Source of the DNA: Acholoe squamosa
Lineage: Eukaryota; Annelida; Polychaeta; Phyllodocida; Polynoidae
DNA length: 64,000 bases
Direction of reading: 5' to 3'
Assembly: GCA_949317995.1 (NCBI GenBank)
Contig: OX439038.1
Location: 2,560,001 to 2,624,000, forward strand
Shown here: positions 7,246-23,507 of the stretch, in pieces
Numbering within the stretch: position 1 is the first letter of the stretch
Layout: each line of letters starts with the position of its first letter
Notes under the pieces: generated by a model
What the model was told of the DNA's origin: nothing
The model's input: only the letters and a program-made list of their open reading frames with translations
Databases searched by the model: none
Translations under genes and position numbers: made by a program

Positions 7246-10200
7246 TTATATAGAAAGGGGTAGGGTGCTTACACCGTCTTCACATACTTGTCTCTTTATG
7301 TACTGATAGGTTAGACCTTGTTTCCTTTGAGAGTAAGTCGTAACGCTGTGGTTAACTACTTTAAATCCTTTGTTGACTACCGTGACAACATTTTCACTGT
7401 CCAGTACTTCTTTGTACTTGTCAGTGGTCAGGGGGTTTTGTTTTTGAATTACACCTTTGCAACTCATTTTAACGGGCACATTTACTCCTGTGCCTATGTA
7501 ACATTTGGAGTTCAAGGCAGTCATTTCATCACCTTCCCACTCCACTTTGAATAACCCGGGGGTTCTCTTGTCAAACGCCAGACGGCTCTTACAGCATGGT
7601 TGAGGCAGCCACAGCTCACCCAAAACTTTGGTCTGAACATAGGTCTCTCTGTGGTGACTGTTGTCACATGATTCAGAGGGCAACCATTTGTGACGTTCTC
7701 TGAAGAAAGCTTCACGTTTTTCAGGAATAATTACGTCTTCTATTTTCTCTGCACTTAAAGCAAAGTAAAAACTGTCAGTGTCCATTTCACACATTTCAAA
7801 ATCTTTCTCGTCTATGTATTCAAGGAGAAAGTCGTAATAGAAAGCCAACATTTTAAGTTTGGCATATTGGTATACCATGAACCCTATTTGAACTGGGAGG
7901 TCGTAGGTGATGGAGGTGGGCAAACAGGACAGTTCTACCGTGTTGTCACTTATGTCTTGCACATCTTGCACTGACCAGTGCATGGCCAAACGTCTTGCCT
8001 TAGAGGGGTGAAGATACTTTGTTTGAACAAAGTTTTGTTTGTTGCATATGGTTTTTCCGTATGAACCATTTCCCAAAAGTTTGTACAGATCTGACAAAAT
8101 CTTACAGTCTATATTTTCGTCTCCCTTCCTCCTAGCTTTGGTTACTTCGTCCATGAAGGGTAAAAAAGTCTGTTCTGGTGTGTATTCTACGAGAAGGTGT
8201 ACTGTCGTAACTACCAAACCTTTCTCCAGGTACCACTTCAAGAGAGGAGTTCCCAACAAAATTCCCTCTGCGTGGTAGCTGCCTATAAGTTGGCGTTGCG
8301 GTTGTTTTAGCTTACCTGCTGCTTCCAGGTAACGTTTCATATGTTCACCTACGTCTTTTTTTCCTACTAAACAGTTTTTGAAAATAGGTGTCATTTCACT
8401 GAATTTTTCTTTCAAGGATTCAGGTGTTTCTATGTCTACCTGAATAAGTCCAAAAGTTGTTCCTTTAGAAACCCCTCTCAGTATTTCATCCTGACTTTTT
8501 CTGCCTTGGCACAACGGTCTTTTAATTTCCCATTCACTTTTTGTTTCTCTGCACAAGTTTTCAGTTTTTTCTTTCAACCACATACACTCATACTTTTCCT
8601 CTACTTGGTAACCTAACGACTGAAGATATAGGGTAGTCAAAATGGTATTTTGGTTTTTTTCTTCTAACCATGCCTTTCCATTGGGGTCTCTCAAAACTGA
8701 TTTAGTGAGGTGACATATGTGACCATGCCAGTAGCACCCGTGAAACTGGTATACTTTTTTTGAAGCTGGATTATAACCGTCCACTTTTATTTTCCTTGAA
8801 CCCAATACTACTTCCCCGTAGTTGTATTGGTGTAATATCTTGACTTTGTCTGTCACAGTTTTGTATCGCAACCATTCTGTGGCTGAGTAGCTAATTTGTT
8901 GACTGCAGACAGCTTGAAAATCGTTTTCTTTCCTGCGCACCACATAATAACCTGTGCAGTGCTCTTCACCCATGCACTTGAGGTACAAGCTGTTAGCATC
9001 TACCCCTACTATGTGTCTGCATACTTTGCTTTGTGACCCGTATTTTTTTTGTCTTATTCTTGTTTCTCCACTTTTGTGATGTCTGTGAAAAATAATAGAG
9101 GGACCCCCTACTAAGTTGCGTCTGAGCAAGGAGTGAACATCCTTTTCTTTCTCACCAAAAAGAATGTAAGGAGTGGCATTAGGTGCAGTGTTGTTGAAAA
9201 GAAACTTCAAGGTTAAACCTGGCAAAGTTAAACCGTCTTTGAACATGTCTACCCCACGATCTATAAAAAATTTTGTGTGCTCGTTTATGGCTAAAACAAA
9301 GGGTTTAACATCCAGGTTGTTGTAATATATCAAGTAGTCCTTCATAGTTTTCATTTTGTTTTCTGTCCAGACCTTTTTACATTCAAGATAATTTTCTTTG
9401 CTTATTCCACTACCCGACAAAGAACTGTAGAAGCAGTGGCGTGGAGGAAGAGCTTTGTTGTTCAGTTTTCTTATGTTGTCCATCCACTCGTAGGGAAAAA
9501 AACCTTTTTCAGCTTTCCCTTTTAGAAAGGCTTTCAGGTAGTTTGCGTAGGAATAACCTGGTGCCAAATAGTTAAACATGTCAAGGAAAAGAAGATGGTC
9601 TGTGTACACTGCTATGTACTTGTTGCATTTTTTTATGGTTTTCATTTCTGTTTTGTCTGTGTCTATAAAAAAAGAATGAAATTCCTTTTTTATTAAATTA
9701 ATGTCATACTTTCCAGAGTTGAAACCTAGAACAGGGACTCTTTCTATGTAGGTAAGAAGTTTTTCCTTCACTTCAAGAACATGGGAGATTTTTTTTTTGG
9801 GATTTTTTTTGTTCTTTGCTGGAAAAACTTTGCTAGCTTTATGTTCTAGTTCCTTTTGTTTTTCTTCTAGAGAGTCTAGTTCGTCTAAAACATCTCTAAA
9901 ATTCTCTTTCACCTGTTCTCCTATCAACTGCCCCAAGTTGTTTATGTGTTCCAACACATTTTTAACCAAAGGATCGTCGTCCCTGTTGGAATTTCTGACA
10001 AAACACACTGGTTCTGTATGACCAGGAAAATCAGAAGCTACACTGGCAGAAAGGGGTATGTGAGTTTTTTCTATCACAGTGTTAGCATTTTCTGGGGACG
10101 AATTTTCAGGTTGGACGAAATAGCTTTCAAAGTCAAAAACAATTTTATAGGGGTATATTTTTTTCTCAGGTGAACAAGCTATTCCCAGTTCCTCTAAAAC

Positions 10201-11385
10201 TTGAAAAACTGTTTTGGATGGATTGTATGCTCCACCTTTGTACCTGAAGCTGACTTTGGTGCAATCTTTTTTCACCCCATTGTGTTGTTTCAAAAGGAAG
10301 CTACGAGTGAAAACTTTATGACACTTTTCACAGGGGTACATTTTACCATACAGTCCCATGTTAGTTATTAAACTTACATGGTTTCTGTGTAAGTTCAAGT
10401 TGATGATTTTTTTGGATGAACACATGTTTGACCTTATAATTTTAGGTCGCCCCTTTCTTTTACCAAAAGAGGGAAGGTAAAAAATTCTTATGTTAACTTC
10501 AAACATTTTTTCTAACCTGTCTAAATCTCTTATGTTAACACCCTCAAAAGTCTCCTTGTTCACCCCTGGATAGGCTTCAAGGAAAAGCTCTTGAGTTTTT
10601 TCTAAAGATTCATACAGGAAGAAAGACAGACATCTAAAGAAACACAAGTTGTCCTTGTACGCCCTTTTGGTTTTAGGGTCTCTGTGAAAGTGTTGCATTC
10701 CTCTTTGTCTTAAACCTGGTGGAACAGTTTTCATTTTACCTAAAAGATATTCTCCTCCCGTAGCCCTTATGAGTGTGATGTTGGCGTTCACGTTGCCTAT
10801 TACACTCCATTTAGTAGAGGGTCTTTGAGTGTCTTCTTTAATGTTGTTTTCTATTAAATCTAAACACTCTGCAAAGTCTTTGTCATCCCTTATAAAAATG
10901 TAAGGGTCTCTATGACTTTCACTGTCATAGAACAAAGACGAGTTGTTGGCAGAAGCATGAAAGTACATGACTTTCTCTTCTTCTTCCTCCTTAGAGGAAG
11001 ACAACAACCTTCCAAAAGAGACAGCCACTTTGTAAGCCATAACTTGATTTCTATGAATAGAGGTAAGCGCCTCTGTTACCTGTTTGGCTCCCAAGTCTTT
11101 GTTGAAACTTGTCATTCTGACGTTGAAAATGGACTGAAGCTTACCAAGCACAGCCAAACCTGAAGCTATGGACTTGAAGTTGTCACGGTAACTGCTTTTA
11201 TGCAAAGAATTTTTTTCTATTTCTTTTGGAAGTTCTAAGCTGTCGGAAAAAGTTTCTCTTCTACAAGAATCTGAGTTACATAAAGTTTTTCCACTGTTTT
11301 CTACAGTAACCAAACGTGGAGGTCTAGGGGTGTTACACATTGGACAGTTGACGGTGTAAAGTTGTTTTACCTTTTTGGGCGGCAT
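7246..11385 (-). CDS. polB: Protein-primed family B DNA polymerase (pPolB)
   Basis: This 1379-residue polymerase replicates the element. Exonuclease motifs: DFE at 418-420, GFNSGKYD at 554-561, YYNNLDV at 687-693. Polymerase motifs: A VDANSLY at 795-801, B YKLLGNGSYG at 1101-1110, C MDTDS at 1201-1205. All catalytic acids are present, so the enzyme looks active. The large N-terminal half carries a CPMC...C...C zinc-ribbon-like site (14-41), an OTU-protease-like stretch (DNLCFFRCL at 245-253, later NLHRNHVSL with H336) and a C2H2-like finger (352-369). Between motifs A and B, residues about 861-936 hold FHGCYWHGHIC and a later GYQV...YECMW, resembling Vsr-type endonucleases. ATG at 11,385. It lies 228 bp downstream of the SIM-type gene on the same strand. 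Confidence 0.97.
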   Translation of the reverse strand: MPPKKVKQLYTVNCPMCNTPRPPRLVTVENSGKTLCNSDSCRRETFSDSLELPKEIEKNSLHKSSYRDNFKSIASGLAVLGKLQSIFNVRMTSFNKDLGAKQVTEALTSIHRNQVMAYKVAVSFGRLLSSSKEEEEEKVMYFHASANNSSLFYDSESHRDPYIFIRDDKDFAECLDLIENNIKEDTQRPSTKWSVIGNVNANITLIRATGGEYLLGKMKTVPPGLRQRGMQHFHRDPKTKRAYKDNLCFFRCLSFFLYESLEKTQELFLEAYPGVNKETFEGVNIRDLDRLEKMFEVNIRIFYLPSFGKRKGRPKIIRSNMCSSKKIINLNLHRNHVSLITNMGLYGKMYPCEKCHKVFTRSFLLKQHNGVKKDCTKVSFRYKGGAYNPSKTVFQVLEELGIACSPEKKIYPYKIVFDFESYFVQPENSSPENANTVIEKTHIPLSASVASDFPGHTEPVCFVRNSNRDDDPLVKNVLEHINNLGQLIGEQVKENFRDVLDELDSLEEKQKELEHKASKVFPAKNKKNPKKKISHVLEVKEKLLTYIERVPVLGFNSGKYDINLIKKEFHSFFIDTDKTEMKTIKKCNKYIAVYTDHLLFLDMFNYLAPGYSYANYLKAFLKGKAEKGFFPYEWMDNIRKLNNKALPPRHCFYSSLSGSGISKENYLECKKVWTENKMKTMKDYLIYYNNLDVKPFVLAINEHTKFFIDRGVDMFKDGLTLPGLTLKFLFNNTAPNATPYILFGEKEKDVHSLLRRNLVGGPSIIFHRHHKSGETRIRQKKYGSQSKVCRHIVGVDANSLYLKCMGEEHCTGYYVVRRKENDFQAVCSQQISYSATEWLRYKTVTDKVKILHQYNYGEVVLGSRKIKVDGYNPASKKVYQFHGCYWHGHICHLTKSVLRDPNGKAWLEEKNQNTILTTLYLQSLGYQVEEKYECMWLKEKTENLCRETKSEWEIKRPLCQGRKSQDEILRGVSKGTTFGLIQVDIETPESLKEKFSEMTPIFKNCLVGKKDVGEHMKRYLEAAGKLKQPQRQLIGSYHAEGILLGTPLLKWYLEKGLVVTTVHLLVEYTPEQTFLPFMDEVTKARRKGDENIDCKILSDLYKLLGNGSYGKTICNKQNFVQTKYLHPSKARRLAMHWSVQDVQDISDNTVELSCLPTSITYDLPVQIGFMVYQYAKLKMLAFYYDFLLEYIDEKDFEMCEMDTDSFYFALSAEKIEDVIIPEKREAFFRERHKWLPSESCDNSHHRETYVQTKVLGELWLPQPCCKSRLAFDKRTPGLFKVEWEGDEMTALNSKCYIGTGVNVPVKMSCKGVIQKQNPLTTDKYKEVLDSENVVTVVNKGFKVVNHSVTTYSQRKQGLTYQYIKRQVCEDGVSTLPLSI

Positions 11386-11613
11386 TTTTTTAAGGTTTCT
11401 TTTTCTTGTTTCACTTTATGTTCTATGTACAAACTTATAACTAAAACCTAACCTAAGTATACATGGAGTACATATGGAACTTAAACCTACGCTGGGCTAT
11501 GTTGACTAAAAACGGAGTACATCTAAATCTAACTACAAATTAGCTGATATACATGATAATGTAAAAGCACTGAACAAGGAGCTGTTGACCAGACACTATA
11601 CAAAGTTGACCAC
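11386..11613. other. Spacer between SIM-type gene and polB
   Basis: A 228-bp AT-rich spacer with tandem-looking segments (ggagtacat twice, near 11,465 and 11,514). It presumably holds the end of one minus-strand transcript and the promoter of polB. No clear TATA box is seen. Confidence 0.4.
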
Positions 11614-13017
11614 TTACCCAGAGTAGAAATCGGTCATTTCGTCTAGGAAGGGCCCAACTCGTGATTTTATGTCCTCCAGAATGAAGGGGGACACAGTGTG
11701 GCCGCAGTGTGTGGCTGAGGGGGGCATTCTGAAGCTGGAAGACACCGAGGCGTTCATTTCCTCCACGTAGCTGGTTGTTCCTATGTGAACTTTAGGAGTT
11801 CCCTTGTACAAGTTTACCAGGACCATAGCCCGGCCTCCACTGGGGTCGGTGCAGTCTTGGTTCAAGGACAACAAAAGATTATCCACCTTCCTCTCTCCAA
11901 GGGCAGCTAGGCGGTGTAACTCCTTGTACTTTCCTAGGATGCACTCTATCTGGTCCACTAAGTTCCTGAATTCACGCGCCTCTAGGTTTAAGCACCGCTC
12001 GTAAGGTTTGTCCAGGTAGGTTCTCAAGCATACTCCCCTGATGCTAGGTTCCCTGTATATTTCTATGCAGGCGTTGTTATCCCCTTCCGGATAAAAAACT
12101 TGGTTGGGGGCAGGTGACTTTTCTTGGAAACCAAATCGAGCAGGCCACTTTTTTACCACCAAAGGCATGGACCTAAAGCCCACAAGCTTGCTGGAAGAAC
12201 TGGGGGCAGTGCCCTCCCCAAACTTTTGCCTGTGTAACTTGTCTTTAGGAGACGGAACACCTGGGACAGAACCAATGGGCTCGGTACCATAGGATGAAGT
12301 CGCTGAGGAATCTGAAGCAGGGGTAGAGACAGGGGTTTTCTTATGGTAGGCGCGCTTCTGTCTTTTTTTCTTAGGCTCCCCTTCTCTCTCACTGGAACAG
12401 TTTCTTTTTTCCGGCGGGCTTTTAAGAAGCAGCTCCTCTACTGGAACCGGGAGAGAGTACAGAGGAGAAGGGCCGGTTAAATCTATAACCTCTACCTGCG
12501 AATACCCCCCGCGGTGAGCAGGTGAAGGTGTCCCTTGTGTTAAGTCCACCACTTCTATGGGTTTAACTGCCGGTGATGAGGTTGTAAGGTCTATAACCTT
12601 AATTGGACTGACCTGGGGAGAAGGTTCCTCCGGAGTCACGGGTGAGTAAGAGGCGGACGTAGGTGCTTCAGTGGGGGGTTGGTAGTTCAAAGGTGCCGGG
12701 GGATTGATGTATTCCCTGATGTCAAAATCGCCGTCGCCAGCTTCCTGAGGAGAGCGATCCCGGACGCAATCCAGGAAATCAGTGATTTCGCCATGAAGAG
12801 CTGCAAGAGCGGCTTCCTGTTCTCCTGCATCAGGCACTTCAGTTGGAAGCCGACCAGGAGTTGCAGGTGGTTTATCAGGTGAGGCTGGAGAGGTAGGAGG
12901 AGGGGCGATGCCCGACGCCTTTTCCACTGTCTGTTTAGAAGTAGTAAAAGTTAGTGGAGCCAGTTTTTTAGCTCCTCCTCTCCTGACACTAAGTCCCATC
13001 TTCATGCGACCAGGCAT
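11614..13017 (-). CDS. Proline-rich protein with three SUMO-interacting-type motifs
   Basis: From the first ATG (13,015-13,017) this is 467 residues; the frame is open to a TTG at 13,086. The N-terminal half is disordered and rich in Pro, Ser and Thr. It carries three close matches to the SUMO-interacting core: VIDLT (141-145), VVDLT (156-160) and VIDLT (177-181), each followed within a few residues by S/T-P. A basic stretch PKKKRQKR (about 215-222) is a likely nuclear localisation signal. The C-terminal 170 residues look folded; the part around residues 315-360 (CIEIYREP...LNLEAREFRNLVDQIECI) faintly recalls PC4-type single-strand DNA-binding domains, at low confidence. A TATA-like CTATAAAG (minus strand) lies about 112 bp upstream. 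Likely nuclear, SUMO-binding; the partner is unknown. Confidence 0.85.
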   Translation of the reverse strand: MPGRMKMGLSVRRGGAKKLAPLTFTTSKQTVEKASGIAPPPTSPASPDKPPATPGRLPTEVPDAGEQEAALAALHGEITDFLDCVRDRSPQEAGDGDFDIREYINPPAPLNYQPPTEAPTSASYSPVTPEEPSPQVSPIKVIDLTTSSPAVKPIEVVDLTQGTPSPAHRGGYSQVEVIDLTGPSPLYSLPVPVEELLLKSPPEKRNCSSEREGEPKKKRQKRAYHKKTPVSTPASDSSATSSYGTEPIGSVPGVPSPKDKLHRQKFGEGTAPSSSSKLVGFRSMPLVVKKWPARFGFQEKSPAPNQVFYPEGDNNACIEIYREPSIRGVCLRTYLDKPYERCLNLEAREFRNLVDQIECILGKYKELHRLAALGERKVDNLLLSLNQDCTDPSGGRAMVLVNLYKGTPKVHIGTTSYVEEMNASVSSSFRMPPSATHCGHTVSPFILEDIKSRVGPFLDEMTDFYSG

Positions 13018-13415
13018 TGTTCTCCTTGAAGATGAAAGGGTGGCAGGGCTGGAAGGTGCAGGAGCAGGACGGCGAACAGCAGACAAACGTCAGAAAAGGT
13101 TTGATGAAGATCGAGCAGCTCAAGTCTACTTTATAGTAACTATCCTGATACGATGCTGGGACGTTCCCTTGTCGTTCAGATAACGTACAACCACGTCCAT
13201 GAGTCGTAGATAACCGTGCTTTTCCATTCATAGTATGTTTTACACTTAGTCAGTGTTGTTTTGGAAAAAAGTAAAAAAGCTTAACTCAAATAAAAAACGT
13301 GATAACGTTCAGTCAACGTTCAGGGTGAGGCTTGTAAAACGAATCTTGTTGTTACCATTCTGTAATTAACGCAGACCATTCGTCATTTATCAGAACTAGC
13401 TTCTCTCAAGCAGAC
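13018..13415. promoter_or_regulatory. Divergent promoter region
   Basis: This region separates the minus-strand block (SIM-type gene) from the plus-strand block. On the minus strand CTATAAAG occupies 13,129-13,136. The plus-strand side (13,260-13,400) is AT-rich with cgtt/aacgtt repeats but has no clear TATA box. It is the only head-to-head junction in the element, so both transcription units probably start here. Confidence 0.6.
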
Positions 13416-14072
13416 ATGGCTAACTTTTGTCCTTTGCCTTTGTCTTTGACCGTAGGTCACAAAAGGCGTCAGGAGGTGTTTATTTCAGACATCAGGAGGG
13501 GCGTAGAAGAAGGTAAGGTGTGGGCTGTGTGGAAATTCTGTCCTGAAAATTTGAACAGGGATCTTTACATCCCTCCTAACTGTAACTTCAAACAATGCTT
13601 TTTGCACAACCAAACCACTGCATTGGTTCCTGGTGGACCCTCTGTGAAAAAACTTATCTCAGAAAATGGGGAAAGTTTTTTTTCAGGTGTTCATTTGGGA
13701 CATGGTGCCATGGTACACTTGATGTCTAGACATTCCATTTCCTCTGGAAGTTCAAAGAAATTCATTTCAGACAGACAAAAACCCTTTTTTCTAAGGGATC
13801 AACCTTTGGGGGGAGGGCCTGGTAATTCAGTTTTCATCGATTCTACTATGGTGAAGGCTTTAATTAAAGCCACTTTACTTCACCCAGACAAAATTACACA
13901 CTCTTTAGGTTCAAAAATTTTCTATGAAAGAGGATTCAGGACAGAGATTGGACACAATTACCATGGATGCTGTCATGTTGTGAGAGTTATTACTGAAATA
14001 ACTACCTCCCATGAAAAAGGTCAGTTGAAGGTGGTAACAGCCTACCCCGTATCTAATTTTTGGTCCTCCTAA
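13416..14072 (+). CDS. Accessory protein, weak EndoU/BECR-like C terminus
   Basis: A 218-residue protein from ATG 13,416, not confidently assigned. No signal peptide or membrane segment is seen. The C-terminal 60 residues contain IGHNYHG (178-184), then a beta-rich stretch and KVVTAYP (205-211) followed by NFW. A histidine followed by a terminal T-x-Y/F-P strand is reminiscent of EndoU and related BECR-fold RNases. The match is by eye only, and the usual lysine and second histidine cannot be placed with certainty. First plus-strand gene after the divergent promoter. The stop overlaps an AATAAA at 14,071-14,076. It could equally be an unrelated Polinton-specific protein. Confidence 0.75.
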   Translation: MANFCPLPLSLTVGHKRRQEVFISDIRRGVEEGKVWAVWKFCPENLNRDLYIPPNCNFKQCFLHNQTTALVPGGPSVKKLISENGESFFSGVHLGHGAMVHLMSRHSISSGSSKKFISDRQKPFFLRDQPLGGGPGNSVFIDSTMVKALIKATLLHPDKITHSLGSKIFYERGFRTEIGHNYHGCCHVVRVITEITTSHEKGQLKVVTAYPVSNFWSS

Positions 14073-14307
14073 TAAAACTGAACAAAAATAAACGATGATC
14101 CTCCGGGTAAGGCCCCTGGGCCAAACCCACCCTTCCACATGTTTTCCCCTCTTTTCAGAACGCTCAGGCACTGACCCTGAGGTTTGTTTCGTCCTTGAGC
14201 AATAAATCATTTCAGGAAAGTGCGATAAGGAAAGACTGACAGGTTTCCTATAAAGGTTAAACGGGGACTAAACCATCGTTATTTGACACAACAACCTTCG
14301 CCCTACT
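14073..14307 (+). promoter_or_regulatory. Intergenic: poly(A) signals and TATA box
   Basis: AATAAA at 14,071-14,076 and again near 14,201 could end the upstream transcript. TATAAAG at 14,249-14,255 lies 53 bp before the next ATG and is a plausible core promoter, suggesting that this gene has its own promoter. Confidence 0.5.
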
Positions 14308-14931
14308 ATGTCGCGTTACTCCCTGCAGCGTGTATTAGAACAACGTCACCCCGACGACACTCAAGTTCTGACATACGTGAGGGAAAGAAATGAAATTATA
14401 TGTTGCTCTTCTATTTGTTTCAGGTACGTGTGCAAATACTTGAAAGAATGTGTTCTTCACCGGAAAAAATTATACTTAGTTTTTTCTTCACTGCAATCAA
14501 GTTTTACATCCAAAGACAGAAAAACCTTGAGGAAAATGGTTTTGAGTCATAACTTGTCGAAATTTTCAGCGGTGGAAACCTTGGGTTATGCCCTGAAGGA
14601 TGGAAGAAAGGGAAAAGGCCCACTGAAAAACCCCTTCCATGTGGAAGCATTGAAAGCGGCAGAAGAGCATCACGCCAAAGAAAATCCCCGCCTACTTAAC
14701 CAGCGTCTTCATTTCTTCATGTCTATTTTGGAACTTCTAGCTGAGTGCTTAGAAACCAAAACTTTGTTTTCCTCCTGCCCCATATTTCACATCCCATCAT
14801 CGTCCCTGGATCTTTTAAGTGTAGAGGAGAAAGAAAAAGTTTGGTTTTATCTGGCTATGTGGTGCACCCAGCTTATCTCCCTTACTCACTGTTTTCACCA
14901 CAATCAGCTCGCTTTACACTCAACGTCATAA
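14308..14931 (+). CDS. DUF5662-like accessory protein
   Basis: A 207-residue protein from ATG 14,308. The middle holds SHNLSKFS (80-87), then a tyrosine (94), then HVEALKAAEEHH (111-122) and N126. This order (H-x-LSKFS, E..Y, then H..A...H...N) is the signature I associate with DUF5662, a helical, possibly metal-binding family common in phages and large DNA viruses. No enzymatic activity is established for it. The C-terminal 70 residues are hydrophobic and helical. It stands between two regions with TATA boxes, so it may be expressed independently. The assignment is a motif judgement. Confidence 0.75.
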   Translation: MSRYSLQRVLEQRHPDDTQVLTYVRERNEIICCSSICFRYVCKYLKECVLHRKKLYLVFSSLQSSFTSKDRKTLRKMVLSHNLSKFSAVETLGYALKDGRKGKGPLKNPFHVEALKAAEEHHAKENPRLLNQRLHFFMSILELLAECLETKTLFSSCPIFHIPSSSLDLLSVEEKEKVWFYLAMWCTQLISLTHCFHHNQLALHSTS

Positions 14932-14984
14932 CAAATTTAAACGAACGAAGAACGATGTAACATGCTTACCTAAACAGGGGAAAG

Positions 14985-15257
14985 GGAACGGGAGAGATAT
15001 ATAGAATAGGATAGAATAGGGTAGGATAACATAGGGTAGGGTAGGGTAGGGTAGGGTAGGGTAGGGTAAAAAAGGGTGGGGTTGGGTTTAAAAAACTATG
15101 GGGTGGGGGGGTGGGGGCACCCCTCAAGTATGGGGGGTTTGGGGCTTGTTGGCCCGGGCTGGCCGCCCAAATAACCCACCTAACCCACCCACCCACCCAC
15201 CCACCTAAACCACCTACCCACCTACCCTACCCTACCCTACCCTACCCTACCCTACCC
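14985..15257. repeat. TAGGG / CCCTA inverted low-complexity tract
   Basis: A run of seven or eight GGGTA pentamers (about 15,015-15,067) is followed by G-rich then C-rich sequence (15,075-15,225), ending in the complementary CCTAC pentamer run (about 15,222-15,257). The two pentamer blocks can pair as a stem of more than 30 bp, and the G-rich half could form quadruplexes. It lies directly upstream of the TATA box of the Death-domain gene. No credible coding frame is present. Confidence 0.85.
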
Positions 15258-15265
15258 TATATAAG
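15258..15265 (+). promoter_or_regulatory. TATA box of Death-domain gene
   Basis: TATATAAG follows immediately after the CCTAC repeats and lies 88 bp before the chosen ATG at 15,353, a reasonable distance for a core promoter. Confidence 0.6.
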
Positions 15266-15352
15266 TCAACTGTATGCTTTCTAGCCTGTCATAACCTGCC
15301 TGCCTTCCTACCTGCCTGCCTTACTTGCTCAACACCTTTTATTTTGGACGCT

Positions 15353-15982
15353 ATGGAGTTTCACCTTTCGGACGAGTTGTTATTCAAGGTCAGTGAAAAA
15401 ATATCTGAAAAAGACTACCCTCGATTAGGGGTTTACTTAGGACTTAGACTAAGTTTAATGGATTACATGGAAAAAATACCGTCTCTTCGTTCTATGGGGA
15501 GAGAAATGCTTATTTCATGGAGCAGAAAGAACGTGCGTTGCAAGTGGATGGTATTGAGACATGCATTAAGTGACATAGGTCGTTACGATCTAACTGATTA
15601 TTGTAGATGGTACATGGGATATTACAACGTAGTGGACCATTGTGAAATTCCTCCAGAACAGTGGAAAGTTGATACTTTGTTCGTCAACCTGGCAGACAAG
15701 TTCGAAATGCTTGACTGGAGGAAACTGGGAACTCAACTTGGATTGAGCGACCACGAGCTTAACCTGATATCCACCCCTGTTCCAGGGAAAAAAGGTGTCA
15801 CAAATCCTGTTTTCGAAGTTCTGATGGTTTGGAAATATAGAGAAATATCTCATCCAAGCTGCCTAATAGCCAGTCTATACAACATGGGACTTTCTGATGT
15901 AGCTCTTTACGTGGAAGGTTTGAACAAGGGTTCTACTGGTTTAAAAGAGGACGAGATTGCTCCTTTGGTCACTTTGGTTTAA
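15353..15982 (+). CDS. Tandem Death-domain protein
   Basis: The frame opens at a TTG (15,344) but the first ATG is at 15,353, giving 209 residues. Two Death domains fill almost the whole protein. DD1 (about 5-84) runs LSDELLFKVSEKI, DYPRLGVYLGL, then MLISWSRKN and ALSDIGRYDL. DD2 (about 108-190) runs LFVNLADKF, DWRKLGTQLGLSDHELNLI, VLMVWKYRE and LYNMGLSDVALYV. These match the six-helix pattern, including the conserved tryptophan in DD2 (replaced by Tyr in DD1). There is no kinase, caspase, TIR or membrane segment, so it is a pure adaptor or decoy. Known Death domains assemble apoptosis and NF-kB signalling complexes. Host capture and use as an inhibitor or modulator is inference. Confidence 0.9.
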   Translation: MEFHLSDELLFKVSEKISEKDYPRLGVYLGLRLSLMDYMEKIPSLRSMGREMLISWSRKNVRCKWMVLRHALSDIGRYDLTDYCRWYMGYYNVVDHCEIPPEQWKVDTLFVNLADKFEMLDWRKLGTQLGLSDHELNLISTPVPGKKGVTNPVFEVLMVWKYREISHPSCLIASLYNMGLSDVALYVEGLNKGSTGLKEDEIAPLVTLV

Positions 15983-15995
15983 GATATCGTCCAAC

Positions 15996-16685
15996 ATGGA
16001 TCACAAGGAAAAGGAGATCATTTTTGACCCACGTCTACAAAGCCCCTTCACAATGATCATAGCTGGACCTACTTCTTGTGGAAAAAGTCAACTTGTTTTC
16101 AAGTTGATTAAAGGTGTAGACGAGCTTGTTACTCCAAAAATACACGACATATACTACTGCTACAGTCAATGGCAAGATGGATTCGACGAAATGGTGAAGT
16201 TGGGGGTTAAGTTTAACAAAGGTCTTCTTTCAGAAGACTTTTTGTTCGAGGATGAAAGAGACGTGACTAAACATGGACTGGTCGTAATAGACGATCTCAT
16301 GGATCCCGAGTACGTTCCCACCATAATGAAACTTTTCACTGTGGGCTCTCACCATCGCAGTTTAAGTGTAATTTTTATTACTCAAAACTTGTTTTTCAAC
16401 AATCCTGCCTTCAGAACCTTGAGCTTAAATGCACACTACCTAGTTGTTTTTAAAAACCCTAGAGACATGAGTCAGATAGGGCACATTAGCAAACAGGCCT
16501 TTCCAGGACAGAAATCCTTTTTGACGGAGGTATATAACTCAGAAACCAAAGAGAAACATTCATACATCCTATTGGACTTTAAGCAGAGCACACCTAACGA
16601 GCTTAGGGTAAGAAACAGCATAACAACTCCTTGGAACACCTTGGTTTTCATTCCTCAAGCTTCAGCTTCGAAAAGAAAAAGATAG
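15996..16685 (+). CDS. A32/FtsK-HerA-type genome packaging ATPase
   Basis: A 229-residue protein starting at ATG 15,996, 13 nt after the Death-domain stop; the open frame extends upstream to a TTG at 15,957. Walker A is GPTSCGKS (24-31), Walker B is LVVIDDLMD (95-103), and a downstream SVIFITQNLF strand fits the sensor glutamine. This is the Polinton ATPase that pumps DNA into capsids in related viruses. Length is typical and all key residues are present. The lysine-rich C terminus (KRKR) abuts the next gene, which starts 2 nt after the stop. Confidence 0.95.
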   Translation: MDHKEKEIIFDPRLQSPFTMIIAGPTSCGKSQLVFKLIKGVDELVTPKIHDIYYCYSQWQDGFDEMVKLGVKFNKGLLSEDFLFEDERDVTKHGLVVIDDLMDPEYVPTIMKLFTVGSHHRSLSVIFITQNLFFNNPAFRTLSLNAHYLVVFKNPRDMSQIGHISKQAFPGQKSFLTEVYNSETKEKHSYILLDFKQSTPNELRVRNSITTPWNTLVFIPQASASKRKR

Positions 16686-16686
16686 A

Positions 16687-17052
16687 ATGGTGACCAAAAG
16701 ATCTCCTTCTGGAGGAAAATTTAAAACAATTAGGAAACATTACCACTTGTTGAAACACATATCCAAGTGTTCCTCGGCAGAGTGTTCCCACATTATCAAA
16801 GGTCTCAGCGATGAGGTCATTAGGTTGATGAGTCAAATTTGCGTCAACGTAATGAACAAAAACCTGTTGCGTAACGAGTCCGACGCAGTCAAACGTTTAT
16901 CACCCTACAAGAAAGAACTCAAGTCAGTCACAAGGCACAAGGCTACCGTTAAGCAGAAGAGGAAAACCTTTGAGCAAAAGGGTGGATTTTTGGGAACCAT
17001 TTTGGGCCTCGCCTTACCCCTGATAACAGGTCTCATAGGAGCACGTCGATAA
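16687..17052 (+). CDS. Small basic Polinton virion protein with hydrophobic tail
   Basis: A 121-residue, Lys/Arg/His-rich protein from ATG 16,687. The middle has SPYKKELKSVTRHKATVKQKRKTFEQKGG, with its hydrophobic end (about 98-118) GGFLGTILGLALPLITGLIG followed by ARR. This arrangement (helical basic region, lysine run, QKGGFL, hydrophobic tail) is widespread next to the ATPase in animal Polintons. Function is unproven; a DNA-condensing or membrane-active virion component is likely. The next gene starts 7 nt after the stop. Confidence 0.85.
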   Translation: MVTKRSPSGGKFKTIRKHYHLLKHISKCSSAECSHIIKGLSDEVIRLMSQICVNVMNKNLLRNESDAVKRLSPYKKELKSVTRHKATVKQKRKTFEQKGGFLGTILGLALPLITGLIGARR

Positions 17053-17058
17053 AAAATC

Positions 17059-17334
17059 ATGTCTTATTCAAGGATGGCCCTCGTAAGGGCGGATCTTGTT
17101 CCCCGAGAAAAAAAACCTTCTTTTGTTAGTCCTTCCTCTCCTCCCCAGCCTGGACCTTGTGTTCAAGACCAGTACTACAGCACTCAACTTTTAAGAGAAG
17201 GTTTAACTCCTGATTCCAGCCTGGTTCAAGTCCTGAACCACCTTCAAAGTAAAGCACATGAGGTGCTTAACTCTCCTAACCTCAAACTGAAGGAAGTACA
17301 ATCAACTTATGATAAAGTCGGGAATTTTAACTAA
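17059..17334 (+). CDS. Core-type protein, N-terminal part (frame-split)
   Basis: A 91-residue frame from ATG 17,059. It begins with a proline-rich segment and ends with an alpha-helical stretch (LVQVLNHLQSKAHEVLNS and on to DKVGNF). In related elements this kind of segment is the N-terminal portion of a longer protein whose C terminus resembles the next frame. Here the frame stops at 17,334 inside the start of the next ORF, which is in the +1 frame. Either the gene is broken by a one-base indel, or it is decoded by +1 frameshifting, or two proteins are made. Confidence 0.65.
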   Translation: MSYSRMALVRADLVPREKKPSFVSPSSPPQPGPCVQDQYYSTQLLREGLTPDSSLVQVLNHLQSKAHEVLNSPNLKLKEVQSTYDKVGNFN

Positions 17335-18004
17335 AAAAGCCAAGGCCTTAGGACAACGTAGGGAAGGTCCCTATCCTGGTCGAGCAGTAGGACAAGGCCC
17401 TGCAGGAGCAGCAGCAGCAGTAGCTGGGGGTGTAAACAATTCTTTAGAAGACACCGACGACGGCGACGACGATGATGACCACACTTTCACAGAGACTAGA
17501 GACGATCCACCACTTCCTGACGATTCAGACGGAGACAGTGTAGACGAGTTCAAAGGGGAGGAAGGCTTTAAACCTCGTGCAAGAGACAACACAGAGGGTA
17601 TGGACGCCGACATAAAAGAAAGAATACCTGCAAGTTACAGAACGACTGCTAAAAATCTCTACAGAGAATTATCTCGTCACGGAAGTCAAATTTTGAATTG
17701 GAACAGAGACGGAGAAATATATGTTAACGGGGAACGTGTGCCTGGAACTGACATAACAGATTTGTTAGCTTTTGCTGCCCGACCAAAGTCTTTGAAAAAG
17801 GACCAACCTAAAGGAAGCCAGGTTTTCATGAGAGCAGTTAAAAGGCTGAACCCCACCTTAAAATTTGTCAAAAACAAGTCGGCTTTTGCAGGGCACAGTC
17901 CTTCCTTTGCTGCCAGTCCCTTGAAAAGAGCTTCCCCTATTAAGAAGAGGAAAGTAAGTCAAAAAGGAACTGGACGTAAGTTTATATGGCGCACAAGGCT
18001 TTGA
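17309..18004 (+). CDS. Core-type protein, C-terminal part (frame-split)
   Basis: A 231-residue frame whose first ATG (17,309) lies inside the preceding frame, overlapping by 26 nt. It has an Ala-rich segment, then an acidic run (DDGDDDDD at about 49-56), then a folded-looking domain at about 108-180 with IPASYRTTAKNLYRELSR, LNWNRDGEIYVNG and RVPGTDITDLL. This pattern (basic helix, WN..Ge, iPGs.i.dLl) is common in a conserved Polinton protein of unknown role. The C terminus is very basic (KRASPIKKRKV), suggesting DNA binding or nuclear import. It overlaps the integrase start by 19 nt. Confidence 0.8.
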   Translation: MIKSGILTKKAKALGQRREGPYPGRAVGQGPAGAAAAVAGGVNNSLEDTDDGDDDDDHTFTETRDDPPLPDDSDGDSVDEFKGEEGFKPRARDNTEGMDADIKERIPASYRTTAKNLYRELSRHGSQILNWNRDGEIYVNGERVPGTDITDLLAFAARPKSLKKDQPKGSQVFMRAVKRLNPTLKFVKNKSAFAGHSPSFAASPLKRASPIKKRKVSQKGTGRKFIWRTRL

Positions 18005-19065
18005 AAAAAGATGTCCTCAGGTTTTACACAGATCCTAAACAACCTGGAAGTTTCACCAGCGTATCTAAACTTCAACGTCATCACTTCAAGAAAACAAAGA
18101 AAAAAAACATAGAACAAGCTTTGGAAGATGTAGACGCTTACACCAGACACAAACCTTACAAGAGAAGATTTCCAAGAAGAAAAACACAAACATGGGGGAT
18201 AGACAAACAGTGGCAACTTGACCTCATAGACATGCGAGAATTTTCAAAGGAAAACAAAGGATACCAGTACATTCTAGCGGGAATAGATGTTTTTTCAAGG
18301 TATGGTTTTGGACAACCTGTGAAAAGTAAGAGAGCTGATGACGTGACAGAGGCTTTCAAAAAAATGAGCAAAGAAAGAAAACCTCAACAAATTCAAACTG
18401 ACAAGGGCAAAGAGTTTGTCAACAAAATTTTCAAAAAACACTGTGAAGATCAAAAAATCAATTTTTTCACAGGAGAGAATGACGACGTGAAGTGTGCCTT
18501 AGCCGAAAGGTTCAACTCTACTTTACAAGGAAAAATGTGGAGATGTTTTTCTCATTTCAATAACTACAAATGGGTTGACTTGCTGCCCGACTTGGTTAAG
18601 TCCTACAATTTGACTTACCACAAATCCTTAGGAGCTGCCCCTTCAGACATAAATAAAGACAACTCTGAAGTCTTGTTCTACAGGTTGTACAATCAACCTC
18701 AAAAGAAAAAAGTTCCTGTCCTTCAGTTGAAGAGAAAAAATCAAGTGCGAATGTTGAAAACAAAGAAAACATTTAACAGAGGGTACGAACCTAACTGGAC
18801 TGAGGAAATATACACAGTCGACAACATTTCGCCCAAAGGGTACCACCTGAAAGATCTCCTTGGAGAAGAGATAAAAGGAAGCTTTTACGAACCTGAAGTT
18901 CAGAAGGTGCAAGTCCATCACGGAAGACGCTACAACATAGAAAAAATAGTAAAATACAGAGGAAAAGGCAAGAAAAGAGAAGCCTTGATCAAGTGGAAGG
19001 GTTATGGAGACAAGTTTAACTCTTGGGAACCTGTCAAAAACATAAAGAAATGGCGTTTACCTTAA
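17986..19065 (+). CDS. int: Retroviral-type integrase with chromodomain
   Basis: A 359-residue integrase from ATG 17,986. The catalytic core (about 68-225) has D79 (QLDLIDM), D139 (QTDKGKEF) and E174 (ALAERFN), a complete DDE triad with 34 residues between the last two. A lysine-rich linker is followed by a C-terminal chromodomain (about 315-356, YNIEKIVKYRGKGKK...LIKWKGYGDKFNSWEPVKNI) with the conserved W-K-G-Y and SWEP motifs. It would cut and join element ends to host DNA, giving the 6-bp duplication seen here. No HHCC zinc domain is evident at the N terminus. The gene overlaps both neighbours. Confidence 0.97.
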   Translation: MAHKALKKDVLRFYTDPKQPGSFTSVSKLQRHHFKKTKKKNIEQALEDVDAYTRHKPYKRRFPRRKTQTWGIDKQWQLDLIDMREFSKENKGYQYILAGIDVFSRYGFGQPVKSKRADDVTEAFKKMSKERKPQQIQTDKGKEFVNKIFKKHCEDQKINFFTGENDDVKCALAERFNSTLQGKMWRCFSHFNNYKWVDLLPDLVKSYNLTYHKSLGAAPSDINKDNSEVLFYRLYNQPQKKKVPVLQLKRKNQVRMLKTKKTFNRGYEPNWTEEIYTVDNISPKGYHLKDLLGEEIKGSFYEPEVQKVQVHHGRRYNIEKIVKYRGKGKKREALIKWKGYGDKFNSWEPVKNIKKWRLP

Positions 19066-20435
19066 CTTTACCTAGTAACTCATCTATGAATGTTTTTCCT
19101 GACAACACTTTAACTAGTTACAATACAATTTTGGCAGAATACATTAACTCTCCTACTCAGTTAGAGTGTGCTCTTCAAGAAATAACCTGTCCTACCACGT
19201 GGTACAACGTCAAAGAAGAACCCATTCTCTTGGTACAGGGAGAAAACGACCTGACAAACAACCTCCGCTCTGTAGTAGCTTTATTGAACAAACGCAGAAG
19301 AGAATTTTTTCCTCTGGAAAAACCAGGAGCCCATAGTGTCTTCAGTAGAGCTTCAAGCTCTACATCAAATTTATCAGCCCAATCTGCTTTGAAGAGAGGA
19401 GTAAAAATAACAAAAAACCTACGTCATGTCAACCCTGTGGGATCGACTGAAACCATTCCTCCTGCTGGTCCTGCAAGTGAAAGTTCACCGACTCCTGCTG
19501 CTGCGACTGAGACGCCATCTGGAGGATTCACTTCTAACCAACCCACGCCAGAGAAGGAGGAAAAGGAAGAGGAGGAGGGTGAGGGGGAGCGTGACACGGC
19601 AGGCAGAGAGAAAAGGGAAATATCGTCGGCTGTGGCTGAAGTGATGTCTATGGATGACAGGGAAAAAAGGTCTCTATCTTTTTTTGAAGAAAAGGCCGTC
19701 TTCACAGACTCTGCTAATGTTTCTCCTCTCTCTCCCAGTCAGTTACAGGCTGTGAAAATATGTACACGCTTCAAGGAAATTAGCAGATACCTGTCTAAGT
19801 ATTACTTCAAGGAAGGTAGTATCTACAATATGTTTGCCTTAGAAGGTGTGAACCTGGAAAGCAACTCAGAGTTGATAGGATACTTGAACAGGACCATAAA
19901 TAAACTACAGAGCATGTTGGTGAGAAAACTAAGAAACTACAGGAAAAACAACAAAGCCACCGTGTTTCACTACAACAAATACACAATGAAAAGTGTAGTT
20001 TCCTTGCCTCCTGGTGTGGTCATGCAACTCCCAGAAAACTTAGGGAAACAATTAGGTTTTGACGGAAGTGTTTTCCTAAGTGGAAAAACACAAAGCCCCT
20101 ACGTGGTAGACCTTAAGTACAAAAGTCGATGTGCTTTCGTGTACTCTGACATAGTCAAGCACAGTCTTGTGGGTGACTCTAAAGCACCCCTTCTGAGGCA
20201 AATCAACATAAATCGCTACAACGGTGACATGCAGACCATAAGTTTCCAGAACTTGATATATCTGCCAGTCACTAAAACCACCTTCAGGCAGATAGGGATA
20301 TACTTAAGAGACAAGACTGGGGAACCTATACCATTTGAAAGCAGTGTCGGTGGTACTTGCCTTCAGACCTCTTCAAGGATAGGAGTATATTACCATGCTT
20401 CACTACTATGGAACACCTCCATACCTGGCCCCTAG
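19050..20435 (+). CDS. Penton-type minor capsid protein
   Basis: From ATG 19,050 this is 461 residues; the open frame extends to a TTG at 19,023. The N terminus (FTLTLPSNSSMNVFPDNTLTSYN...LQEITCPTTWYNV) and C-terminal half (LGKQLGF, VDLKY, VYSDIVKHSLVGDSKAPLLRQI, FRQIGIYLRDKTGEPIPFES) match the conserved Polinton minor capsid protein expected to cap vertices. Between about residues 95 and 235 lies a long disordered, Ser/Pro/Glu-rich insert with an acidic run (about 168-180) and two REKR motifs (186-189 and 204-207) that fit a furin-type R-x-K-R pattern. It overlaps the integrase by 16 nt and the next gene by 41 nt. Confidence 0.85.
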   Translation: MAFTLTLPSNSSMNVFPDNTLTSYNTILAEYINSPTQLECALQEITCPTTWYNVKEEPILLVQGENDLTNNLRSVVALLNKRRREFFPLEKPGAHSVFSRASSSTSNLSAQSALKRGVKITKNLRHVNPVGSTETIPPAGPASESSPTPAAATETPSGGFTSNQPTPEKEEKEEEEGEGERDTAGREKREISSAVAEVMSMDDREKRSLSFFEEKAVFTDSANVSPLSPSQLQAVKICTRFKEISRYLSKYYFKEGSIYNMFALEGVNLESNSELIGYLNRTINKLQSMLVRKLRNYRKNNKATVFHYNKYTMKSVVSLPPGVVMQLPENLGKQLGFDGSVFLSGKTQSPYVVDLKYKSRCAFVYSDIVKHSLVGDSKAPLLRQININRYNGDMQTISFQNLIYLPVTKTTFRQIGIYLRDKTGEPIPFESSVGGTCLQTSSRIGVYYHASLLWNTSIPGP

Positions 20436-20865
20436 GGGTCAGTACGCTGAATACTACAGAAAATCACAGTTTGGGAACGGTGCTTTACCAGCGTACGGTG
20501 GCAGGGGCAGACAAAGAGGGCACGGACTTGGTTCGTTAATAGGTGGTTTACTGAGAGGAGCTGTTCCCCTCTTAAGTAAAATAGGACGCTCGGCTGCCAA
20601 ATCTGCAGGCAAAGCCTTGCTTACTACAGGAGCTGGAGTCTTGTCCGACGTGGTAACAGGAAAAGGCTTCAAGAAAAGTGTAGTTAGGAGAAGTAAAGCT
20701 ACAGGGAAGAACTTACTCAAAAGGGCTGCTTCTTCTGCTCAAGGATACATAAAAGGTACATCTGAACCTCCTCCAGTCAAACGACGAGCAACCGGCAAGC
20801 GCGGAGGACGTAAGGGGCAACGCGGCAGAGGTAGAGGACAAGCTAGAGGAAGGACCTTGTTCTAG
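20395..20865 (+). CDS. Basic glycine-rich virion protein (pVI/pX-like)
   Basis: A 156-residue protein from ATG 20,395. After a Tyr/Gly-rich start, residues about 40-85 (GHGLGSLIGGLLRGAVPLLSKIG and following Ala/Gly-rich helix) form an amphipathic, membrane-active-looking segment, followed by GKGFKKSVVRRSKATGKNLLKR and a Gly/Arg tail (RGGRKGQRGRGRGQARGR). Such proteins are constant in Polintons and resemble in style adenovirus pVI or pX, that is membrane lysis or DNA condensation; homology is not demonstrated. The stop lies 2 nt before the major capsid start. Confidence 0.85.
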   Translation: MLHYYGTPPYLAPRGQYAEYYRKSQFGNGALPAYGGRGRQRGHGLGSLIGGLLRGAVPLLSKIGRSAAKSAGKALLTTGAGVLSDVVTGKGFKKSVVRRSKATGKNLLKRAASSAQGYIKGTSEPPPVKRRATGKRGGRKGQRGRGRGQARGRTLF

Positions 20866-20867
20866 TC

Positions 20868-22184
20868 ATGAGTCTCCTTCATCCCAAGGGTCAGGTATGT
20901 GCAGTAGGTGAACTAGACCTACACGCCTTGCCTGTCACTCAAAAGGACATATTAAAGTGTCAAAAAATAACCAAAACTACCAACAATGCCCTGACTCCAC
21001 ACACTGAATCATTTGACTTCACCTTCGAACCAAGCAACCTGTACACAGACCTCTCAGAAACTGAGCTGTACATGGAACTGGAAGCCGTGGCGGCAGACGG
21101 AACAACTCACCTTGCCGTAGGCATAGAAGCTGCTCCAGTCAACAACTTGGCACACGCTCTCTTTGCTTCCTGTCAGTTGCTGATAAATGGGGAGAAAGTC
21201 ACCGGCAACAATGAAGACTATGGTCTCAAGGCCTACATTTTGGACACAATTTGTTGCAACAAAGAAGACAAAGAGACTCGGTTGAAAGGGTGTCAAAAGT
21301 ACATGAAAGACACCTGTGGTCACATGGAAGCCAGAGCGGGCGAAAATGCTGGATGGACGGCACGGAGAGCAGAGTTCAGTGCCCGCAACAAGCATGCCTT
21401 AGTAATGAAGCCGCACCTGGATTTAATTAAACAGTGCAAGGTGCTGCCTCCGAACTGTGAAATCAAGTTCATATTTGAAAAAAATCAGCCCAATTACTAC
21501 ATGATGCAAGCAGCCGATCAAAACTACTGGGTCAAAATCACCAAAGCTGAAATGACACTTCTCCAAAAATGTGTCGACGACGAGGTGGTGAAAACTCACG
21601 TCAGCAGTGTCAGGAATCCACATTGGGGCCCTTTCAACTATCACATAGCCAGGTGTAAAGTAACTAAACACACTTTGGACGGCGGCTCACAAGACTACAG
21701 TTGGACTCAACCTGACACTACTCAGATCCCCACCAGGATAGTCTTGTGTATGATAAAGGAAACAGCAGCTGCTGGGACTAAGACAGAAAATCCTTTCAAC
21801 TGCAGGCATTTCAACGTGAAGGAAATATGCGTGAGATATGACGATCAAAAGTTTGAGTTGAAGACCGACTTCGAAACAGGCAACTGCATCAGAGCCTACA
21901 GTCAAATGTTCATAGACAGTGGGCTGTCGGCTTTGGGGCAAGACTGTGGCATAACTTTGGAAGATTTCAAAGATGGATATTCCTTCTTTGTTTTCGACCT
22001 CACCCCAGACAGAGCACCTGAAGACAGTCGTATAAATCTCATCAAGCAAGGAAAGCTGGGCATTTCCCTTAGGTTTGCCGCCCCGACTACTCACGCCATA
22101 TCTGCCGTCTTGTGTTCCTTCTACGACAACAACATCCAACTAACGGCTGACTGTCTTCCTGTCACAGACTACCACATGAACTGA
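20868..22184 (+). CDS. Double jelly-roll major capsid protein
   Basis: A 438-residue protein from ATG 20,868. The N-terminal part has the family hallmarks: LDLHALPVTQKDI, FDFTFEPSNLYTDLSETELYMELEA, APVNNLAHALFASCQLLINGEKV, then YGLKAYILDTICC and YMKDTCGHMEA. The second half has NPFNCRHFNVKEICVRYDDQ and YSFFVFDLTPD, typical of the second jelly roll. Length is close to the family norm. It would build the icosahedral shell with the penton-type protein. No break is seen. Confidence 0.95.
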   Translation: MSLLHPKGQVCAVGELDLHALPVTQKDILKCQKITKTTNNALTPHTESFDFTFEPSNLYTDLSETELYMELEAVAADGTTHLAVGIEAAPVNNLAHALFASCQLLINGEKVTGNNEDYGLKAYILDTICCNKEDKETRLKGCQKYMKDTCGHMEARAGENAGWTARRAEFSARNKHALVMKPHLDLIKQCKVLPPNCEIKFIFEKNQPNYYMMQAADQNYWVKITKAEMTLLQKCVDDEVVKTHVSSVRNPHWGPFNYHIARCKVTKHTLDGGSQDYSWTQPDTTQIPTRIVLCMIKETAAAGTKTENPFNCRHFNVKEICVRYDDQKFELKTDFETGNCIRAYSQMFIDSGLSALGQDCGITLEDFKDGYSFFVFDLTPDRAPEDSRINLIKQGKLGISLRFAAPTTHAISAVLCSFYDNNIQLTADCLPVTDYHMN

Positions 22185-22191
22185 GAAAAAA

Positions 22192-22656
22192 ATGAGAACT
22201 TCAGACATAACAGGTGCACTGGGAAACCATCCACACACAAGGCGTTTCTACCTGGGAACTTTTGCCAGTAATCAATGTCCTAAAAAACCAATTCCCTCTA
22301 CATGTTTCGTCAGTAACACAGATCCAAGCTCTAAACCTGGTCAGCACTGGGTGGCATTTTACGTTTCTCATAACGGGAATGTATTCTACTTTGATCCCTA
22401 CGGCTTACCTCCGTTTACTATATATCACCAAAGGTTCATGGAAAAGGCGTCAGATGGTCACGGGTCGTTCAGCAGAAAACAAGTGCAAAACTTTTACGCT
22501 AAAACATGTGGAGCCCACTGCATTAACTTCCTCATAGAAACATGTCGGACCAAGGATCCACACCACACTGTAAAAAGGTTTTCTCAGGTCCCCTTCAACT
22601 TAATGGACAAAATAGTCAGGCCCTTCCTGAGAAAAAGAGAGAAGAAGAGGCAATGA
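22192..22656 (+). CDS. Adenain-like (Ulp1-fold) capsid maturation cysteine protease
   Basis: A 154-residue protease from ATG 22,192, 7 nt after the capsid gene. Catalytic residues are visible: H52 (GQHWVAFYV), D68 (FYFDPYG), Q99 and C106 (QNFYAKTCGAHC). The seven-residue Q-to-C spacing matches adenovirus protease. It would process virion precursors; the Ulp1/SENP fold is shared with SUMO proteases, which is notable beside the SIM-type protein, though the role here is expected to be structural. The stop overlaps the next start as ATGA. Confidence 0.93.
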   Translation: MRTSDITGALGNHPHTRRFYLGTFASNQCPKKPIPSTCFVSNTDPSSKPGQHWVAFYVSHNGNVFYFDPYGLPPFTIYHQRFMEKASDGHGSFSRKQVQNFYAKTCGAHCINFLIETCRTKDPHHTVKRFSQVPFNLMDKIVRPFLRKREKKRQ

Positions 22657-22967
22657 ATTTCGAGATGAGTCCAGAAGAAGTAGCAGTCAAAGCAGACGTG
22701 AGCAATCTTTTGGTGAAAGGAAAAGTTAAACGTGAACTGGACGTGATAGACGGGCTTCAGAGCACGGCAGAAGTAATAGACAAGATTCTCATCATCATGG
22801 CCGAGTTAATGGACAAAGTGGTAGCCCTGGAGGAGAACGACATAGGAAGAAAGGCCTTGAAGGATTTAATGGAGAGAATGCGGGCCTTAGAGGACCGTAG
22901 TCAAAGTCCTACTCCAGCCAAGACCGGGTGCAGTTGGTACTGCAACAAGAATTCATTTTCCATATAA
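22653..22967 (+). CDS. Small coiled-coil protein
   Basis: The preferred start is ATG 22,653, overlapping the protease stop (ATGA), giving 104 residues; an alternative in-frame ATG at 22,542 would give 141 residues but lies deep in the protease gene. Residues about 30-85 have a strong heptad pattern (VIDGLQSTAEVIDKILIIMAELMDKVVALEEND...LKDLMERMRAL), so the protein is probably an oligomeric coiled coil. No family is recognised. It is the last gene before the right TIR, followed by AATAAA at about 23,044. Confidence 0.75.
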   Translation: MNFEMSPEEVAVKADVSNLLVKGKVKRELDVIDGLQSTAEVIDKILIIMAELMDKVVALEENDIGRKALKDLMERMRALEDRSQSPTPAKTGCSWYCNKNSFSI

Positions 22968-23043
22968 TATCCATGTACTCTGCTTGCAAAGCATATCTGA
23001 TTATAATGATTCATACCTAGCATGTACTCTGATAGGAAGAAAA

Positions 23044-23049
23044 AATAAA
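23044..23049 (+). terminator. Polyadenylation signal of the plus-strand block
   Basis: AATAAA in an A-rich context about 77 bp after the stop of the last plus-strand gene and just inside the right TIR; a plausible shared 3' end for the late gene cluster. Confidence 0.55.
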
Positions 23050-23107
23050 AAGATTGAATTAAAAAAACCGAGTTGTGTCTTTGTTGCATTTAATCTCATA
23101 TCAAAAT

Positions 23108-23501
23108 AGTGAGTCATAAGTATTGCGTAAATTCATAGGAACATTGCATCAGAAAATGAGTCATGGTTATTGTGTAATTTCTTTCAAGGATTGCACAATA
23201 CACCCTCATACGTAGGTCATACGTTTTTGCAAGTAGGTTAGTAGGTCACTTCCGGTTTGTAAGTAGGTCAGCTCTAGGTATTGCACAATTCTTTTAATTT
23301 ATGTAACTAGGTCAGGTCACTTGGTCAAATGGAATCCAGCTCTCTGATTGGTCGAAAAAACTAGGTCATAACCTTATGACGTCACTTCCTGTCAAATCCA
23401 GCCCTCTGATTGGTTAAAACTAGGTCACTTCCGGTCTACCAGTAGGTCATGACCTAGTTAGTAGCTAATCCATTGCGCTCAGTTTGCATGTATATACTAC
23501 T
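23108..23501 (-). repeat. Polinton terminal inverted repeat, right
   Basis: Reverse complement of 5095-5477, ending ...ATATACTACT at 23,501. It keeps the ETS, CRE and CCAAT sites and nearly all AGGTCA half-sites of the left copy. One half-site is changed (ACCAAG) and one AGGTCATGACCT palindrome has become AGGTTATGACCT in the left orientation. Confidence 0.95.
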
Positions 23502-23507
23502 GTTAAA
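23502..23507. repeat. Polinton target-site duplication, right
   Basis: GTTAAA immediately after the right TIR, identical to 5089-5094. Confidence 0.95.

Follow-up and report, generated by a model that had tools for sequence, protein, structure and literature searches.

The vFLIP proteins of gammaherpesviruses and poxviruses consist of two Death effector domains (DED) in tandem with no effector part, and FADD combines a DED with a Death domain (DD). Among the systems described in transposons and large DNA viruses, a CARD-only protein of a grouper iridovirus is held to inhibit apoptosis (PMC4457926), and the planarian Burro giant LTR elements are reported as transposons with apoptosis-linked domains, BIR and BCL2-like (PMC6431247). 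No description of a Polinton DD protein was found in the papers searched, and the word 'death' is absent from the main text of PMC11071296; the report on adintoviruses by Starrett et al. (2021), outside that set, may describe one. The gene analysed here, located within a Polinton, codes for two Death domains in tandem.

The Polinton and its tandem Death-domain gene

The window, that is, the whole stretch of 64,000 nucleotides that was analysed, holds a complete 18.4-kb Polinton bounded by inverted repeats, and the open reading frame described in a first-pass annotation as a Polinton-encoded tandem-DD protein lies inside it (Table 1). As observed in the window, this Polinton DD gene is confirmed as real. 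Of the hallmarks of Polintons, terminal inverted repeats, a 6-bp target duplication and a retrovirus-type integrase are present. The first 300 bases of the inverted repeats share 294 identities (98%), and their gapped alignment extends over 389 columns with 18 mismatches. AGTAGT/ACTACT ends are the commonest in vertebrate Mavericks, although the gene order given there is unlike that of the window element (PMC8097293).

Sixty unnamed homologs of the putative capsid protein were found in a protein database of about 5.8 billion proteins, and phage records contained no relative of it. That this frame encodes the major capsid protein is our assumption from its position, and the 1379-aa frame on the opposite strand, for which Pfam gave no polymerase family match, is on the grounds of its motifs presumably a protein-primed DNA polymerase B. 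Residues 879-952 of the latter resemble a Vsr endonuclease (E 0.002). The adjoining gene (11614-13017, minus strand) encodes a 467-aa protein with three V(I/V)DLT motifs, at residues 141, 156 and 177, which resemble SUMO-interacting motifs. An 81-bp tandem array of 5.6 copies occupies positions 6719-7175 of the Polinton, and Rfam and tRNA scans were empty.

Outside the element, a segmental repeat is formed by 36460-44183 and 56277-64000 (98.8% identical over 7,749 columns), and a nest of inverted repeats at 31021-34286 (arm length 138-185 bp), partly repeated near 51543-53740, is perhaps a palindromic transposon. The best match among the 23 flank ORFs scanned was 0.023, and CpG in the flanks is 0.29-0.37 of expected.

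Table 1. Features of the Polinton and of the Death-domain gene region in the window
Feature	Position	Strand	Evidence or remark
Whole Polinton	5095-23501		18,407 bp; ends AGTAGT and ACTACT; inverted repeats
Target-site duplication GTTAAA, left copy	5089-5094		6 bp
Target-site duplication GTTAAA, right copy	23502-23507		6 bp
Putative protein-primed DNA polymerase	7246-11385	-	1379 aa; size, usual place, motifs
DUF5662-like gene	14308-14931	+	Upstream partner of the DD gene; Pfam 9.2e-4
Long TAGGG/CCCTA hairpin	15031-15260		Ends at the TATA box; fold of 14990-15270, z-score -7.91
TATA box TATATAAG	15258-15265	+	Starts 95 bp before the DD ATG
Tandem Death-domain gene	15353-15982	+	209 aa, intronless; Pfam Death, codon usage
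First Death domain	15386-15598	+	Residues 12-82; Pfam Death 1.3e-4, half alone
Second Death domain	15686-15904	+	Residues 112-184; Pfam Death 1.1e-7, half alone; six-helix model, best match FADD
Putative packaging ATPase	15996-16685	+	Walker A motif; weak Pox_A32 match 0.0038, below cut-off
Integrase with chromodomain	17986-19065	+	Pfam rve 1.3e-10, Chromo 8.4e-9
Putative major capsid protein	20868-22184	+	Assigned from its position; no Pfam match reached the cut-off
Adenovirus-type protease	22192-22656	+	Pfam Peptidase_C5 3.3e-4, 20.8 bits against a cut-off of 21.3

The whole DD protein matches Pfam Death (PF00531) in two stretches with E=1.4e-13 and 51.2 bits. Analysed alone, the C-terminal half scores 32.3 bits and the N-terminal half 22.5 bits, the latter marginal, slightly below the cut-off of 22.6. 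Both domains look full length, since each half spans the profile from position 6 to 79 or 80 of 86; the two Death domains announced in the first-pass annotation are thereby found, and its statement that the protein contains nothing else holds except for about 25 C-terminal residues. Pfam detected Death alone in the product, with receptor, kinase, DED, CARD, TIR and caspase parts absent, and the same scan gave no Death match in 14 other proteins of the Polinton. PHROGs and NCBIfam provided nothing useful for the DD protein. The second DD was modelled as a six-helix bundle that matches FADD among solved structures (Foldseek), in agreement for this domain with the expected six-helix fold; the model was built on a two-row alignment, with a pLDDT of 68.5 and modest Foldseek E-values. 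The N-terminal half alone retrieved no DD from the solved structures of the PDB, just two unrelated matches with E 1.4, and the single-sequence prediction of the whole protein had a pLDDT of 39. Codon usage in the DD frame is akin to that of the other genes of the element (0.201 per codon; 0.207 for the ATPase), and the remaining five frames of the ORF have negative scores.

The DD gene is located, as had been annotated, just ahead of the packaging ATPase, with 13 bp from its stop codon to the putative ATPase. The gene had also been credited with its own TATA box. The box is indeed there, and TATATAAG is found at 140 bp or less upstream of the DD gene in all 30 loci of the window family that were inspected, the window copy itself (L035) included, the distance being 94 bp in six copies. 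Its exclusive use by the DD gene is less certain: as there is no AATAAA between the two genes and the 200 bp ahead of the ATPase gene hold no TATA match, one promoter may serve both, and with the short spacing a shared DD/ATPase transcript is possible. The hairpin that ends at the box may be an origin or a regulatory element.

Copies and relatives in the same genome

A search of the genome (1.48 Gb in 63 contigs) with the DD protein gave 2029 first-look candidates, the best 150 of which are all full length, 98-100% identical and stop-free. The gene is thus not unique to the window copy, and the relatives among these best-listed matches are not decayed; it is present in other Polinton families as well. 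A genome search for Death domains gave 1880 candidates; among the best 150, 147 are without stop, and many of the rows are repeats with equal scores and long open frames. The putative ATPase follows the DD gene in all 30 loci examined. Its frame is open in 25 of them and not open to the end in 5, while the DD frame is open in all 30, a comparison biased towards the DD gene because the loci were picked by DD match. The same bias applies to the 12 distinct DD DNA sequences among these loci, which display 11 silent codon differences and one amino-acid difference.

Seven further stretches were taken from the genome-wide Death-domain matches. In six of them there is a tandem-DD gene, always downstream of a DUF5662-like gene, whose product has 200-206 aa and shares 24-27% identity with the window protein; the seventh (L057) contains a different genomic DD gene. 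Three of the six relatives match Pfam Death at 3e-15 to 1e-16, more strongly than the window protein does; a match to the bacterial Death-like domain bDLD3 of Pfam, at 4e-8 to 1e-5, is seen in the relatives too, weaker than Death. A weak match to G6PD_C (about 2e-4) in two of the three was taken as chance. The DUF5662 homolog of family a (L055) matches its Pfam family at 1.7e-19. In the same family-a Polinton, two successive dUTPase genes come after the DD gene (L055 3070-4152; Pfam 2.3e-19 and 1.1e-42).

Upstream of the cassettes of family a (L059) and family b (L060) there are integrase, ATPase, putative capsid and protease genes and two small genes, all homologous to those of the window element. 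They are arranged as integrase, ATPase, ..., capsid, protease, ..., DUF5662, DD, unlike in the window element: families a and b have the DD gene after the protease, the window element has it before the ATPase. Family c, sampled around the cassette, is presumably a Polinton as well. Within this genome, therefore, two sampled Polinton families carry the gene and a third shares the cassette. The DUF5662-DD cassette is kept together while its place moved. Distant Polintons have the DUF5662-like gene alongside the DD gene, and the two may belong to one system.

Amino acid identities for the pairs window-a, window-b and a-b, respectively, are 21, 22 and 68% for the capsid, 34, 35 and 81% for the ATPase, 39, 37 and 77% for the integrase, 30, 27 and 76% for the protease, 32, 26 and 47% for DUF5662, and 27, 25 and 59% for the DD protein. 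The divergence of the DD gene is about that of the core genes, and the gene would therefore be as old as these in the elements, or have been exchanged early. A service to the element itself, in the virion, in replication or in RNA export, through DD-fold contacts and with host signalling uninvolved, would be in line with the neighbourhood of the gene (next to the ATPase in the window, beside DUF5662 and the dUTPases in family a) and with the presence of THOC1 among the profile matches given below; however, the place of the gene varies between lineages, more as an accessory than as a core gene, and we consider such a role unlikely.

Nei-Gojobori omega values of the DD gene, computed on representative pairs and rough because synonymous sites are near saturation, were 0.08 (a-c), 0.11 (a-b) and 0.17 (b-c), and those of the DUF5662 gene 0.19-0.36. 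Between families, pN of the DD gene is 0.12-0.26 versus a pS of 0.67-0.73, hence amino-acid change is clearly held back. These values also bear on whether the frame might have arisen by chance or be the functionless remnant of a decaying gene. Judging by its inverted repeats, the window copy is young, and its own open frame consequently says little; but the codon usage resembles that of the genes of the element, omega is low between families, and nearly all of the best-listed genomic Death matches are stop-free. A chance ORF or lone pseudogene was rejected on codon usage, intact copies and omega, and we find such an origin hardly conceivable.

Origin of the Death domains

A spliced gene of the genome (L005 469-2336, minus strand) has two DDs, each on an exon of its own whose borders are splice-like, arranged in the same order as in the Polintons, and after them a glutamine-rich stretch in a further exon; no clear additional exon was seen in its flanks. 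In a first tree, calculated with eight Polinton DDs from four families and nine other genomic DDs, the four Polinton N domains grouped together (97/95) and L005 was near the C domains. When both L005 domains were added in a second tree, Polinton N grouped with L005 N (87/82), the C domains of both sources grouped likewise (59/83), and the ten DDs formed one group (84/86), none of the three at the starred level. Phylogeny against the genomic Death domains, which the first-pass annotation had pointed to, thus pairs each Polinton domain with its L005 counterpart with moderate support.

The residue that follows the first helix-2 tryptophan is V, I or T in the eight Polinton DDs and in both L005 DDs, and arginine in FADD and in six of the eight other genomic DDs, the remaining two having histidine. 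We take the FADD arginine to be Arg117 and to matter for DD assembly.

The Polinton DD gene was probably acquired from a host long ago and has since been maintained by purifying selection; the simplest reading would be that a tandem-DD gene of a host was taken up minus its intron. The reverse course, in which L005 would derive from a Polinton and have been adopted by the host, is in keeping with the position of the L005 N domain inside the Polinton N group (89/83). However, L005 has introns, splice-like borders and a further exon, the Polinton DD genes are intronless, and the capture of host genes by viruses is commoner than the reverse; host adoption seems improbable to us.

Proposed function and comparison with known systems

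Against about 5.8 billion database proteins, the window DD protein yielded 127 candidates, none at E<=1e-3, and its region 96-209 yielded 8, none at E<=10; no relative was found in the viral contigs and genome contigs scanned. As relatives are absent from the protein database and viral contigs, the conservation described here is that within one genome. A profile built from the four families of DDs has FADD as its nearest match (1.1e-6), followed by ankyrin-3, THOC1, PIDD and RIPK1, with Pelle at 0.16, and is far from MyD88 (0.7). This ranking does not name a binding partner. It bears on whether the protein might be an activating adaptor, linking host proteins through its two DDs and turning on signalling or transcription to the benefit of the element. 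Tandem DDs could cross-link partners, and RIPK1 and FADD, from activating complexes, are among the matches, but the protein has no effector-recruiting domain, and the changed arginine position, with its presumed meaning, hints at an altered assembly. We regard activation as decidedly unlikely.

Taking into account that: (i) many copies and distant relatives of the element have the DD gene intact, a hint that it is directed at the host, and (ii) a decoy reading fits a protein with two DDs and no effector part, we propose, with modest confidence, that the gene is a conserved accessory of Polintons, of probable host origin, whose DD-only product acts as a decoy entering host DD assemblies. In the model, the protein would be made from its TATA promoter and would join or cap host DD assemblies through its DDs. 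Without an effector part, it would then block the growth of the assembly or the recruitment of the next component, and a cell with an active element would be slower to die or to signal. The initial annotation, an adaptor or decoy that would counter signalling of the death-receptor or MyD88 type, is plausible. Against a decoy speaks that death-fold domains are also found outside cell-death proteins; ankyrins and THOC1 are among the next best profile matches. More tentatively, and as something possible rather than probable, the DUF5662 and tandem-DD genes might form an ancient cassette with a host-derived DD, kept through deep Polinton divergence, that disarms DD-based death or immunity.

Whether Polintons are still-infecting viruses is an open question, and a selected, probably host-captured DD gene would be a virus-like trait, most readily understood if the element is confronted with cell death or immune signalling of its host. 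This could be tested with one small protein, with the homologous L005 pointing to a likely pathway. If the cassette reading is true, the spread to 150 or more near-identical copies within a single genome would make a host-transposon conflict over cell death directly testable.

The arrangement of the Polinton protein differs from that of the known death-fold proteins. The DD of FADD is the nearest solved structure, by fold for the second DD and by profile, although the Polinton protein has no DED; MyD88 joins its DD to a TIR domain, which the Polinton protein also lacks. L005 has its two DDs in the same order but, unlike the Polinton gene, has introns and a glutamine-rich downstream exon. Among viral proteins, A0A481YZ84 of Marseillevirus LCMAC202, which ranked first in the comparison with viral folds (E 1.0, prob 0.91), is annotated with a Death domain, but is a 658-aa protein of a giant virus. 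Burro elements are LTR elements with other domains inside a polyprotein (PMC6431247), whereas the window element is a Polinton with a DD-only gene. The ranavirus CARD-only proteins are, like the Polinton protein, small, of viral type and composed of a death-fold domain alone; the grouper iridovirus protein has one CARD in 91 aa and belongs to a large DNA virus (PMC4457926), whereas here there are two Death domains in a Polinton. The vFLIPs likewise have two tandem death-fold domains and no effector, but these are Death effector domains rather than Death domains, and they gave just a weak fold match to the second-DD model (E 3.8 and 6.9). Should the cassette reading hold, the Polinton protein would add one more architecture to the viral death-fold inhibitors, next to vFLIP and the CARD-only proteins.
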